Made by a program: the position numbers and the translations under genes
Shown: positions 49,271-62,959 of the stretch, piece by piece
How positions within the stretch are numbered: position 1 is the stretch's first letter
Layout of the letters: every line of letters starts with the position of its first letter
Assembly: GCA_944384295.1 (NCBI GenBank)
Contig: CALWSU010000005.1
Span: 1 to 64,000 of the forward strand
Direction: 5' to 3'
Source of the DNA: an uncultured Lachnospiraceae bacterium
GTDB taxonomy: Bacteria > Bacillota > Clostridia > Lachnospirales > Anaerotignaceae
DNA: 64,000 nucleotides
The notes under the pieces: model-generated
Told to the model about the DNA's origin: nothing
Database searches by the model: none
What the model saw: only the letters and a program-made list of their open reading frames with translations

Positions 49271-49291
49271 AACTTCATAAATACATATTGC

Positions 49292-49464
49292 CATCGTAGA
49301 GGTGCATTTTTCAAGAGTACATATGTCAATATCATAAGGGATACATGCGGCATATGGAAAGGGGAACGTGCCGAAGAAAAAGATTGCCTTATCTCTCTTT
49401 TTCTGGTTGTGCGGTTAAGAGCCGTATAACTGTCATTGGAAAATTCCAATGGAGCGCTACAAAA
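49292..49464 (+). ncRNA. Lysine riboswitch (L-box)
   Basis: The conserved L-box blocks occur in order: GTAGAGGTGC, CAAGAGTA, AAGGGAT, GGAAAGGGGAACGTGCCGAAG, CTGGTTGTGC, a hairpin with CATTGGAAAATTCCAATGG, and GGAGCGCTAC, which closes P1 with GTAG/CTAC. It senses lysine and represses asd-dapA-dapB. The expression platform is less clear: a T7 run (49520-49526) follows a GC-rich stretch without an obvious simple hairpin, so termination through an alternative fold or control of ribosome access are both possible. Confidence 0.92.
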
Positions 49465-49587
49465 ATTTTGTTCCACAGCATACAAAGATTGGGTTGTGGT
49501 ATTTGTCGGCGCGGGTCGGCTTTTTTTGTTTCTATGTATTTTCATAACAGATCAAACATATTTTCTAGGAAGGTAGGTATCACGCAA

Positions 49588-58514: not shown

Positions 58515-59789
58515 CTATATTTGTATTGCGCCGCCTACAATGGTATGGCAAACTCTGCCTTTGAGTTGAAATCCCGCAAACGGTGAAAATTTTGCTTTAG
58601 AAGCAAATTCCTTTGGTTCCACCTTGTATGGCTGTGTGGTTTCTATGACAATCAAATCCGCATCATTTCCCACTGCAATGACACCTTTTTGTGTTAATTT
58701 CAAAATTTCAGCAGGTTTTTTCGACATCATTTCGCTCAAACGCTCCAAAGAAATCACACCTGTATCTACCAAATAGGTATAACTAATGGCAAAAGCCGTT
58801 TCCCATGCGGATATACCGTAGGCAGCATTTCCAAATTCTTTATTTTTTTCATTTTGTGGGGTAGGACTATGCCCTGAAGCAATGACATCAATCGTACCAT
58901 CTGCAATACCTTCCAAAATCGCCTGTACGTCATCATGTGTGCGCAATGGAGGGTCTACTTTCACATATGTGTTATAATCTTCTACATCTTCTTCTGTCAA
59001 TGCGAAATAATGTGGACACGTTTCACATGTGACTGCAATCCCTCTTTTTTTGGCATCACGCACCATACGAATCGCACCTCTTGTGCTGATGGTCGCAATA
59101 TGCAAACGTGCGCCTGTTGTTTCTGCTAACAATATATTTCTAGCAACATGCAGTTCTTCTGCCTCTCTTGGCATACCTGCAAGCCCTAAACATGCCGCAG
59201 TATAGCCTTCATTCATGACACCTTTTCCAGATAAGGTTCTATCTTCACAATGTGTCATAACTGGCAAATCGAACATTTTTGTATAACGCATGACATTACG
59301 CAAAAAAGCCGCACTATCAATAATTTCATCTCCATCTGAAATACCTACAATGCCAGCCTGATACATTTCCCCAATTTCTGCCAAATCTCTGCCTTCACAG
59401 CCCATAGACATACTGCCATATGGAAAAATATTGACAGAATCCTGTGCTTTTGCTTTTGAAATGATATATTCTACCACTGTTTTATTATCAATCACGGGCT
59501 TTGTATTGGGTTCACAGGTAATACTTGTAAAGCCACCCTTTGCCGCACTTGCCGCTGAAGTTTCAATATCTTCAATATTTTCAAACCCTGGCTCACAGAT
59601 ATTGCAATGCATATCAATCAATCCCGCTAATACATACTTTCCTGCAACATCTAATATCGTTTCGCCTTTGGGCTGCAAGCCTGTTTTGATTTCTGTAATT
59701 TTACCATTCTGAATCCGTATATCGCACAATGTTTTTGGTATCGCTTCGCCACTGCACAAGCGGCAATTTTTCAACAACAAATCTTTCAT
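58515..59789 (-). CDS. PyrC-like dihydroorotase homologue with degenerate active site
   Basis: A 424-residue type I dihydroorotase homologue that is full length and otherwise well conserved (PNTKPVID, HCED, PPLRT). The catalytic residues are mostly lost: the HxHxR motif reads H61-C-N63-I-C65, the second bridging-region His (AHVST) is T233 within IATIST, and the catalytic Asp of TDHAPH is G306 in ASGHSPT; MNPP reads KVDPP. H180 and SD at 151-152 remain. It is therefore unlikely to be an active dihydroorotase; a structural or regulatory partner of the adjacent PyrB-like protein, as with the inactive PyrC' of Pseudomonas, is the leading idea. It overlaps the pyrB-like stop by ATGA. Confidence 0.85.
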   Translation of the reverse strand: MKDLLLKNCRLCSGEAIPKTLCDIRIQNGKITEIKTGLQPKGETILDVAGKYVLAGLIDMHCNICEPGFENIEDIETSAASAAKGGFTSITCEPNTKPVIDNKTVVEYIISKAKAQDSVNIFPYGSMSMGCEGRDLAEIGEMYQAGIVGISDGDEIIDSAAFLRNVMRYTKMFDLPVMTHCEDRTLSGKGVMNEGYTAACLGLAGMPREAEELHVARNILLAETTGARLHIATISTRGAIRMVRDAKKRGIAVTCETCPHYFALTEEDVEDYNTYVKVDPPLRTHDDVQAILEGIADGTIDVIASGHSPTPQNEKNKEFGNAAYGISAWETAFAISYTYLVDTGVISLERLSEMMSKKPAEILKLTQKGVIAVGNDADLIVIETTQPYKVEPKEFASKAKFSPFAGFQLKGRVCHTIVGGAIQI

Positions 59790-60715
59790 ACCAAGCCACC
59801 CCCCATTTGTGACAATATATAGAACATTGCCATACGTACCGCAACACTATTTGCAATCTGGTCATTGATGATACATTGTGGACTATCAATCACACCGCCT
59901 GAAATCTCAATCCCTCTTTGAATGGGTCCGGGGTGCATGACAATAGCATCCGGCTTTGCATATTGCAGTAACTTATGGTCTATGCGGAAAAATCGTTTAT
60001 ATTCGTCCAATGTTGGCAAATTCATTTTATCCTGCGTTTCTAAGCGCATACGAGTTGTTAATATAACGTCTGCATCTTGTACTGCTTTTTTCGATTCATA
60101 ATGTACTGTAACACCGAATCTTTCCATTTCGGGTAATAACAATGTCGGTGGTCCTGCGACATGTACCTCAGCACCCAATTTTGTCAAGCCCCAAATATTG
60201 CTTTTTGCCACACGACTATGTAAAAAATCTCCAATCATAGCAACTTTTAAGCCTTCAAATTTACCTTTGCTTTCTTTGATTGTTAGTAAATCCAACAAAG
60301 ATTGACCCGGATTTTCATTATATCCATCACCCGCATTGATGACAGATGCTTCGACACATTTTGCCAGCAAACGCGCTGCACCCGCCATAGGATGACGCAA
60401 AATGATAAAGTCTGCACCCATCTGGTCAATCAATTGTCCCATATCCTGCAAGCTTTCTCGTTCCATATCGTGTGCAGAATTTGTCATATCTACCACATTT
60501 GCGCTCAAATGTTGTGCTGCCAATTCATAGGATAATTTTGCTCTTGCACTTTGTTCATAAAATAATATAATGACAGATTTTCCTTGTAAATGTGGGGATT
60601 TTTTATTTTTTTGATTTAAGATATATTTCATGGTTTCGGCTGTTGTCAGGATATAGCGAATATCCTCTGCCGTCAAATCACGTAATCCAAAAAAGTCCTT
60701 CCGATGTAGTGACAT
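59786..60715 (-). CDS. PyrB-like aspartate carbamoyltransferase homologue with degenerate active site
   Basis: A 309-residue ATCase homologue with conserved fold elements (ILFYEQS, RHPMAGA, INAGDG, GDFLHSRVAKSN, MHPGP). Key ligand residues are changed: the STRTR carbamoyl-phosphate loop reads SARAK (56-60); the lysine-bearing KGE motif contributed by the neighbouring subunit reads ERE (85-87); HPTQ reads NPGQ (135-138); the later RxQ motif reads RMR; PxNRG reads PIQRG. Loss of both Thr, the Lys and the His argues against normal catalysis. The start is the second ATG, 8 bases after AGGAGG. It is coupled to the PyrC-like gene, and lspA-rluD lie upstream as in the ancestral pyr region. Confidence 0.85.
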   Translation of the reverse strand: MSLHRKDFFGLRDLTAEDIRYILTTAETMKYILNQKNKKSPHLQGKSVIILFYEQSARAKLSYELAAQHLSANVVDMTNSAHDMERESLQDMGQLIDQMGADFIILRHPMAGAARLLAKCVEASVINAGDGYNENPGQSLLDLLTIKESKGKFEGLKVAMIGDFLHSRVAKSNIWGLTKLGAEVHVAGPPTLLLPEMERFGVTVHYESKKAVQDADVILTTRMRLETQDKMNLPTLDEYKRFFRIDHKLLQYAKPDAIVMHPGPIQRGIEISGGVIDSPQCIINDQIANSVAVRMAMFYILSQMGGGLV

Positions 60716-60737
60716 TGGCATTTCCTCCTGTCATACT

Positions 60738-60806
60738 GTTTCCTGTCATATCTTTGTATCTTTATATCTTTTATCGTTTGATACCTTTCTATCTTTTATC
60801 TTTTAT
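60738..60806. repeat. Degenerate TATCTTT-like repeats in the pyrB-like leader
   Basis: Several spaced copies of TATCTTTN (AAAGATA on the coding strand) fill the gap between rluD and the pyrB-like ribosome site; CCTGTCATA is also duplicated next to it. Confidence 0.7.
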
Positions 60807-60817
60807 TTTTTATGTTT

Positions 60818-61738
60818 TTATGCTTTCAAACGTGTCAACAGGGTTTCAAAATATGGCGGCAAAGGTGCTTCAAATTCCATATATTCTCCTGTAGAAGGAT
60901 GTCGAAAACCCAACACGCGCGCATGCAAGACTTGTCCCTCTAAACCAAAAGGCTGTTTTTTCTTCCCATATACTGTATCTCCTAACAGTGGATGTCCAAT
61001 ATACGTCATGTGTACACGAATTTGATGGGTGCGCCCTGTTTCCAACTGTGCTTCGATGAGCGTAAAATTCCCCAAACGCTCCAACACACGGTAATGTGTG
61101 ACTGCATGCCGGCTATGTTTTTGTGTCACAGCCATTTTTTTTCTATCTTGTGGATTTCTGCCAATTGGCTGGTCGACCGTTCCACTTTCTTCGGAAAATC
61201 CATTATATACGATTGCATTATATTTTCGTGTAATGCTGTGTACCGCTAACTGCTCCGCCAAAGATTGATGTGCTGCATTATTCTTTGCTACCATCAATAC
61301 ACCTGATGTATCTTTATCAATGCGATGCACAATACCTGGACGTTTTTCTCCATTGATTCCAGAAAGTTCTGCGCCACAATGATACATCAGTGCATTGACC
61401 AATGTACCACTGGTATGTCCTGGCGCGGGGTGCACCACCATACCTTGCGGCTTATTCAATACAATCACATCTTGATCCTCATATAAAATATCAAGTGGTA
61501 TATTTTCTGGTAAAATTTCCGGTTCTGCCACATCTGGTATTTGCACATCTATGACGTCTTTTTCTCGCAGTTTATAATTCGGTTTCACAGCTTTGCCATT
61601 GAGTTGTATGTGACCTTGCTCCATCAGTTTTTGTACACCACTTCTGGATACATCTTCCAAAGCGTCCGCTAAAAATACATCAATACGTATGCCAATATCC
61701 TCTTTTTCTGCTGCAAATGTCATATATTCCATATTCAT
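60818..61738 (-). CDS. RluD-family pseudouridine synthase
   Basis: A 306-residue protein with an N-terminal S4 domain (IRIDVFLADALEDVSRSGVQ) and a pseudouridine synthase domain with the catalytic Asp in HRIDKDTSGVLMVAKN, plus the GRTHQIRVHM motif. By position after lspA it corresponds to YlyB of B. subtilis; the modified uridines of 23S rRNA are assumed. The ATG overlaps the lspA stop by four bases. Confidence 0.93.
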   Translation of the reverse strand: MNMEYMTFAAEKEDIGIRIDVFLADALEDVSRSGVQKLMEQGHIQLNGKAVKPNYKLREKDVIDVQIPDVAEPEILPENIPLDILYEDQDVIVLNKPQGMVVHPAPGHTSGTLVNALMYHCGAELSGINGEKRPGIVHRIDKDTSGVLMVAKNNAAHQSLAEQLAVHSITRKYNAIVYNGFSEESGTVDQPIGRNPQDRKKMAVTQKHSRHAVTHYRVLERLGNFTLIEAQLETGRTHQIRVHMTYIGHPLLGDTVYGKKKQPFGLEGQVLHARVLGFRHPSTGEYMEFEAPLPPYFETLLTRLKA

Positions 61739-62217
61739 TCTTCTTTCTTTTTCTCTTTATCCTCTCGTATCACAAACAACATCAAAACACATAATAGTAT
61801 TACACCACATACCACATAAATATCTGCAACATTAAACACAGGCCATTGTATAAATGTAAATTCAAAAAAGTCTACTACATACCCACGAAAAATACGGTCA
61901 ATTACATTTCCAACTGCACCCGCCAAAACCATAATCAATGCCACACGTACTAGATTGTATTCTTTTTTCTTTGGTAATGTCATAAAATAGTATACCAAAA
62001 TAGCTACAATCACGGCAACCATCAATAATATGATCCATTTTTTGCCCGAAAGCATACCAAATGCCACACCACGATTTTCTACAAACGTAAAATCTAAAAC
62101 ACCATCTAACACAGTAATATTATCTATGGGTTTTAGCTGTGTTACTGCTAAATACTTTGTCCATTGATCTAAGCCAATCATCACTAGAACTGCCACCAAA
62201 GACAGTACCCACATCAT
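61735..62217 (-). CDS. lspA: Lipoprotein signal peptidase LspA
   Basis: A 160-residue signal peptidase II with four membrane helices and both catalytic Asp motifs, GNVIDRIFRGYVVDF and FNVADIYVV. It cleaves prolipoproteins after lipid attachment. Of two adjacent ATGs, the first (62217) is 9 bases after AAGGTGG and is chosen; the long frame to 62502 overlaps divIVA and is read-through. Coupled to rluD. Confidence 0.95.
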   Translation of the reverse strand: MMWVLSLVAVLVMIGLDQWTKYLAVTQLKPIDNITVLDGVLDFTFVENRGVAFGMLSGKKWIILLMVAVIVAILVYYFMTLPKKKEYNLVRVALIMVLAGAVGNVIDRIFRGYVVDFFEFTFIQWPVFNVADIYVVCGVILLCVLMLFVIREDKEKKKEE

Positions 62218-62360
62218 GTATGTTCCACCTTTCTTATCCTTCCAATGCTTCTTACTGTTTGATTCTGCAAAAAACAAAAATGGACGAAAACATTTTTTCT
62301 TTACGCTTTCGTCTATCTCTTGCCCAACAGGATTGACACATATTTTTTGAATGCGCAACA

Positions 62361-62401
62361 ATTGACTGAAAGAAACAAACCATTTGTTTCCTTCAGTCAA
62401 T
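62361..62401 (-). terminator. Long hairpin between divIVA and lspA
   Basis: ATTGACTGAA-GGAAACAAA pairs almost perfectly with its complement around a three-base loop. The minus-strand tail is only modestly T-rich, so partial termination is likely. Confidence 0.7.
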
Positions 62402-62428
62402 CTATCCTGTGATTTGCCCAATATTGTA

Positions 62429-62959
62429 TTATGTATTTTGTTCCAATTGCGCTTCTTTCTCCGCCAAAATCTCGTTTTTATCCAACAATTCAATTTCAGC
62501 ATAGAGCAATAATTTCACTCTGGCGCGCATCAATTCATAACGATTCTGCAATGCAGAAATGTCTTGCTCCATTTCATATACTTTGGTACGTGCATTTGCC
62601 AAAATCTCATCACGTTCCAATTTTGCACGTGCAATGATTTGTTCTGCTTCTGCTTTTGCAGTTGCTTTTGTTTCTTCTGCGGCTGCTTCTGCCAATGTCA
62701 AAGTACGTTCCAAAGTTTTTTCTAAATTGCGTAAACGCTCTGTATCTTCTACTGCTGGTTGCACCACTTGTACTGGCTGTACCGGCTGTATCGGCTGGAT
62801 AGGTTCTGCCTGTTTTTGTTTTGCGCGTTCCATACTCTCCCGATACAAGCGCTCATAGTCCTCATAGATATCATCTAAAAAAGTATCTACTTCTTCTGGA
62901 GAATAGCCTACTGCTACTTTTTTAAAATCCTTTGTCGCAATATCATTGGGTGTGACCAC
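62429..62959 (-). CDS. divIVA: DivIVA-domain cell-division/polarity protein
   Basis: A 176-residue coiled-coil protein. The N-terminal VTPNDIATKDFKKVAVGYSP and EVDTFLDDI form the membrane-binding DivIVA domain. A Pro/Gln repeat (IQPIQPVQPVQVVQP) links it to a long coiled coil. DivIVA marks curved membranes at septa and poles. The start is GTG at 62959 with AAGGAGG seven bases upstream; in-frame ATGs upstream would place that site inside the protein. ylmH upstream is the usual neighbour. Confidence 0.92.
   Translation of the reverse strand: MVTPNDIATKDFKKVAVGYSPEEVDTFLDDIYEDYERLYRESMERAKQKQAEPIQPIQPVQPVQVVQPAVEDTERLRNLEKTLERTLTLAEAAAEETKATAKAEAEQIIARAKLERDEILANARTKVYEMEQDISALQNRYELMRARVKLLLYAEIELLDKNEILAEKEAQLEQNT

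Follow-up and report, generated by a model that had tools for sequence, protein, structure and literature searches.

Transcarbamylases are defined by the motifs SxRT, HPxQ and HxLP, the first two of which are common to all known members (PMC4581275). Closest to the locus studied here are the class A complexes of aspartate transcarbamylase (ATCase, PyrB) and dihydroorotase (DHOase, PyrC). In the class A1 dodecamer of Aquifex aeolicus both subunits are active (PMC3880350; PDB 3d6n, 4bjh), and in Pseudomonas class A2 the active ATCase needs an inactive DHOase partner with a structural role, also termed PyrC' (PMC7053772). Amidohydrolase relatives that lack the parental activity but are kept by selection are furthermore known as CRMP/dihydropyrimidinase-related proteins. 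In Bacillus, both genes end the order lspA-rluD-pyrR-pyrP-pyrB-pyrC.

Here, we compare these systems with a pair of paralogues, pyrB' and pyrC', found in a window of 64,000 nt (the whole stretch of DNA analysed) from a genome of the Anaerotignum group (2.3 Mb, 91.5% complete). As in class A2, pyrB and pyrC homologues are paired and the DHOase-like chain is predicted to be without catalysis; the pair differs in that its ATCase-like chain is degenerate as well and a separate canonical ATCase exists. With class A1 it shares both folds (Foldseek, chains A and B of 3d6n), and by analogy the same assembly, a dodecamer of six plus six chains, would be expected, but both active sites that are functional in Aquifex are degenerate here. 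The gene position is that of the Bacillus operon, and a PyrR site, pyrR and uraA are still found 5' of the pair in relatives, whereas the genes themselves are catalytically degenerate and the remaining pathway is encoded elsewhere. PyrC' also matches CRMP folds; CRMPs, however, are eukaryotic, have an unrelated role and lack an ATCase partner.

Inactive DHOase partners of ATCase are already known, while we found no description of a pair with both enzymes degenerate in the open-licence literature searched, which is weak evidence of novelty. If the reading given below is true, two consecutive metabolic enzymes were converted jointly to a new role.

Layout of the locus

The coordinates of the pair and its upstream neighbours are listed in Table 1.

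Table 1. Features of the pyrB'-pyrC' locus (window coordinates).
Feature	Position	Strand	Basis or remark
PyrB', ATCase catalytic-chain paralogue, 311 aa	59786..60721	-	open frame, motif alignment, structure model
PyrC', type I DHOase paralogue, 424 aa	58515..59789	-	open frame, motif alignment, structure model
Overlap of pyrB' stop and pyrC' start, 4 bp	59786..59789	-	
Intergenic gap rluD-pyrB'	60722..60817	-	AGGAGG just 5' of start codon
rluD, ancestral upstream neighbour	60818..61738	-	
lspA, ancestral upstream neighbour	61735..62502	-	listed ORF exceeds gene length

An earlier note on this DNA had described two long frames sharing four bases, which agrees with the table. Its interval 58515-60817 stands for the genes (58515-60721), while 60722-60817 is only the gap before rluD. 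A search of the minus strand of this gap for terminator-like or promoter-like sites found none. The overlap, suggesting translational coupling, has the same length of 4 bp in 48 of the 90 loci that we tabulated (the table holds some loci twice). Related loci mostly show the gene order lspA-rluD-pyrB'-pyrC', again mostly with a 4-bp overlap.

Elsewhere in the window, a lysine riboswitch (RF00168, 115.5 bits) covers positions 49289-49467 of the plus strand directly 5' of asd-dapA-dapB. The start of the longest asd ORF (49345) lies within it, i.e., the true asd start is further downstream.

Active-site residues and predicted folds

The roles of individual active-site residues are established for E. 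coli ATCase. When aligned with solved ATCases, PyrB' carries SARAK in place of STRTR, NPGQ in place of HPTQ and MERES at the loop of Lys84, the residue that reaches in from the neighbouring chain. Thus, the SxRT motif is broken (SARA; the final Thr occurs in 2/54 sequences of the PyrB' clade, with Ser and Arg kept), as is HPxQ (NPGQ). Position 134 is Asn in 49 and Asp in 5 of the 54 sequences and never His, the 80s loop is recoded with Lys in only 4/54 at the aligned column, T55 is lost in 52/54, and Q231 in most. The HxLP position reads HPGP, a replacement of Leu by Gly or Ala that is also seen in most canonical ATCases of our set and in B. subtilis. On the other hand, S52 (49/54), R54 (53/54), R105 (53/54), Q137 (51/54) and R167 (54/54) are retained, and the position of R229 holds Arg or Lys throughout (54/54). 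Judged by alignment, the arginines that would hold the phosphate and carboxylate groups thus remain in PyrB', while the residues handling or activating the carbamoyl group (T55, H134, K84) are gone. Class A complexes contain an active ATCase chain, and PyrB', judged by motif only, is predicted not to be one.

PyrC' shows a similar picture. Compared to solved DHOases, HCN replaces HxH, a Cys replaces R65, SDGD replaces S-[E/D]-D-G and SGH replaces TDH. In the Aquifex enzyme, the alpha metal is bound by His61, His63 and Asp153, with Asp305 being catalytic (PMC3880350); the window's PyrC' has H61, N63, G153 and G306. Among 55 PyrC' sequences, D153 is always Gly, R65 is always lost, nearly all have a replacement at H63, and only 9 retain D305. 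As aligned, the alpha-metal site is lost from PyrC'. An invariant Asp beside the former D153 could in principle compensate for that residue, not for H63. Conserved cysteines are also found near the old metal site (residues 62, 65, 92 and 181, with C62 in 52/55, C65 in 43/55 and C181 in 50/55), possibly a new metal or redox site.

The degeneration of both genes at catalytic residues, as claimed earlier, is therefore a clade-wide feature, such that chance or sequencing error is ruled out as its cause (H134 lost in 54/54 PyrB', D153 turned to Gly in 55/55 PyrC'). Both proteins are nevertheless predicted with good confidence to adopt their parental folds. The PyrB' model (pLDDT 86) has the ATCase fold, with a TM score of 0.85 to 3r7l and the PALA-bound B. 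subtilis ATCase as top Foldseek match. The PyrC' model (pLDDT 88) shows the amidohydrolase barrel (TM 0.95 to 4yiw), its top match being the B. anthracis DHOase.

Profile models do not register the losses. PyrB' scores 318 bits against a cut-off of 263 with the NCBIfam ATCase equivalog model NF002032, and PyrC' 367 bits against 279 with the DHOase subfamily model TIGR00857. Automatic annotation would consequently call PyrB' an active ATCase, and a protein so named distorts pathway predictions for these bacteria. This score, together with the kept R54, R105 and R167, is what speaks for PyrB' as a weak but real second ATCase despite its substitutions. We consider such an isozyme highly improbable, given that PyrB' has lost T55, H134 and the K84 loop clade-wide, that PyrC' as aligned cannot bind the alpha metal, and that a canonical set is present.

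Canonical copies in the same genome

This set is found on contig C3 as the operon pyrC-carB-pyrK-pyrD-pyrF-pyrE-pyrB with every catalytic motif present and a PyrI match directly 3' of pyrB, which settles the suggested check for intact pyrB, pyrI and pyrC elsewhere: all three exist. The same genome encodes argF on contig C50. PyrB' is 33% identical to the genome's own canonical PyrB, and PyrC' 34% to its PyrC. In the canonical pyr operon at L007:9167-17658, carB is present without an adjoining carA, which is located elsewhere or missing from the draft.

The canonical pyrB motif pattern is found in 68 of 73 genomes with the pair (60/63 of the good-quality ones), the canonical pyrB being of more than one type; the pair is thus nearly always additional. 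This co-occurrence would suit a role of PyrB' and PyrC' as subunits, accessory or regulatory, of the canonical ATCase or DHOase in the same cell, and the Pseudomonas ATCase, whose assembly needs an inactive DHOase, provides a precedent (PMC7053772). However, the canonical partner varies by genus, being either about 33% identical to PyrB' and accompanied by PyrI or about 48% identical and encoded in pyrBC operons without PyrI. Since the pair is retained despite these differing partners, one specific hetero-complex is unlikely, and we regard the accessory role as improbable. As the pair is found both with and without PyrI, we rejected PyrI presence as its determinant.

Distribution and ancestry

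PyrB' is present in all six genomes of the same genus (88-89% identity) and is 65-84% identical in those other genera of the family that carry it. Some genera of the family (e.g., g4, g9, g12 and g13) do not have the pair, which is thus dispensable in some lineages. Scanning 84,980 species genomes, we obtained 55 loci with PyrC' relatives, covering Anaerotignum, Vallitalea, Petrocella and many Clostridia as well as a single canonical pair from Oscillospiraceae and four outliers belonging to other phyla. A DNA pattern for the altered GDGxN-E-[N/D]-P motif, used as a marker of the pair, matches 73 of the 246 genomes sampled from the order (31/116 genera, nine families) and none of 188 sampled genomes of the class outside the order; the two matches of the latter search are the window's own genome and one genome of the same family.

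The earlier note had proposed to search relatives for the same paired substitutions and for joint conservation of both genes. Both are observed, with the pair intact at about 85 related loci and in nine families. Absence or frameshift in all close relatives, which would indicate decay, was looked for and not seen. In L083:4992-6262 and L016:228-1498, the PyrC' frame breaks at about residue 248. Since smc, ylmH and ftsY are also split in L083, an assembly error is indicated rather than decay. An antisense gene that seemed to replace PyrC' in L172 and L177 turned out to be an artefact of ORF choice, as PyrC' is present there.

In protein trees, PyrB' forms a single clade of 54 sequences (SH-aLRT 99) and PyrC' a single clade of 55 sequences (SH-aLRT 100). 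Branching broadly matches between both trees, and both clades lie close to canonical pyrBC pairs from the same order. These are quick trees, to be read at the level of clades and not of deeper forks.

In several lineages, pyrR and the uracil permease gene uraA lie between rluD and pyrB'. Among four such loci searched for the PyrR-binding RNA, three show a match at the expected place between rluD and pyrR, found only once the threshold was relaxed (48, 48 and 36 bits with E-values of 0.0015, 0.0015 and 0.28; gathering score 54), while no element passes the gathering threshold. For the PyrR protein, only six genomes of relatives are above the cut-off of a model that also matches other phosphoribosyltransferases. 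In Oscillospiraceae locus L087, canonical pyrBC are still at the site, followed by pyrK, pyrD and pyrE. Given this operon and the order rluD-[PyrR site]-pyrR-uraA-pyrB'-pyrC' in relatives, the pair represents the head of the original operon, i.e., pyrB'-pyrC' descend from an ancestral PyrR-controlled pyrB-pyrC pair, from whose site Anaerotignum lost pyrR and uraA. The ancestral pyr position after lspA-rluD, assumed from the window's gene order, is hereby confirmed. A downstream partner gene travelling with the pair was rejected, since the 3' neighbours vary by family and only upstream pyrR and uraA recur.

Selection and covariation

We computed dN/dS (Nei-Gojobori) for eleven locus pairs, resulting in 0.00-0.10 for PyrB' and 0.03-0.12 for PyrC'. 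PyrB' usually shows the lowest value when compared to rluD, lspA, ylmH, smc and ftsY; for wider locus pairs, where synonymous sites are near saturation, only this ranking of genes is reliable. An illustrative case is the locus pair L043/L044, for which the PyrB' proteins are identical while nearly half of the synonymous sites differ. The pair is thus under stronger selection than most of the adjoining housekeeping genes.

With rluD and lspA distances controlled for, those of PyrB' and PyrC' still covary (partial r 0.53, permutation p 0.0005). As the partial correlation of PyrB' with rluD is also substantial (0.46), we take this covariation as supportive, not decisive. Adjoining pyrB-pyrC homologues that evolve together, a feature of class A, are nonetheless what we observe.

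Taken together, strong purifying selection has maintained the two genes as a pair in addition to a canonical copy. This rules against a gene pair in decay, for which only the loss of catalytic residues from both genes would speak. Frames are intact in all species examined save one genome with several split genes in its assembly; with the dN/dS values above and a spread over nine families, we reject decay as having next to no probability. Selection for a shared non-classical function, which the earlier note had suggested, finds strong support in the joint conservation across much of the order, the matching trees, the very low dN/dS and the canonical copy that is nearly always present alongside. 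Very likely, the pair does some job other than the PyrB and PyrC reactions.

Proposed function

Our best explanation, to which we assign a probability of slightly below one half, is a pseudoenzyme complex resembling ATCase-DHOase, with a small anion as its ligand and a pyrimidine-linked role as sensor or regulator. Here, PyrB' and PyrC' would still form a hetero-oligomer of the ATCase-DHOase (class A) type, in which PyrC' would serve as a metal-free scaffold and PyrB' trimers would retain an anion pocket made of the phosphate and carboxylate arginines. The pocket may bind a small anionic metabolite tied to pyrimidine or carbamoyl-phosphate status, e.g., carbamoyl phosphate, aspartate or a nucleotide, and would transfer no carbamoyl group. 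The output of the complex would be ligand-dependent binding to a partner. The link to pyrimidines is suggested because some lineages have PyrR and uraA as the context of the pair; given that both genes are gone from the Anaerotignum site, such a link to pyrimidine control does not hold for all lineages.

The main rival to this sensor or regulator is a new reaction, i.e., the phosphate/carboxylate pocket of PyrB' would serve an enzyme for another phosphorylated or carboxylated substrate, stabilised by PyrC' as scaffold. Near-invariant pocket residues, including the new Asn/Asp at position 134 (N 49/54, D 5/54), speak for such an enzyme, as does the very low dN/dS of PyrB', whose constraint is stronger than that on PyrC'. 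Precedents exist in UGTCase and YgeW, ATCase-like proteins whose substrates are new or unknown (PMC4581275). We still rate a new enzyme as rather unlikely: SxRT and HPxQ, common to all known transcarbamylases (PMC4581275), are both broken in PyrB', and apart from pyrR and uraA no metabolic gene recurs beside the pair across families.

Returning to the pseudoenzyme complex and its wider meaning, we tentatively propose that many families of one order carry an undescribed complex built from dead copies of the second and third pyrimidine enzymes. It may now act as a sensor or as a new enzyme, with PyrR-type control persisting in some lineages.

A separate observation concerns two loci of Verrucomicrobia (L091:3503-6248 and L092:3503-6248), where a pyrR-like gene, an intact pyrB and a degenerate pyrC are found in a row. 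Their pyrC has NVH for HxH and SNH for TDH, which resembles a class A2-like pair with a pseudo-DHOase in another phylum.
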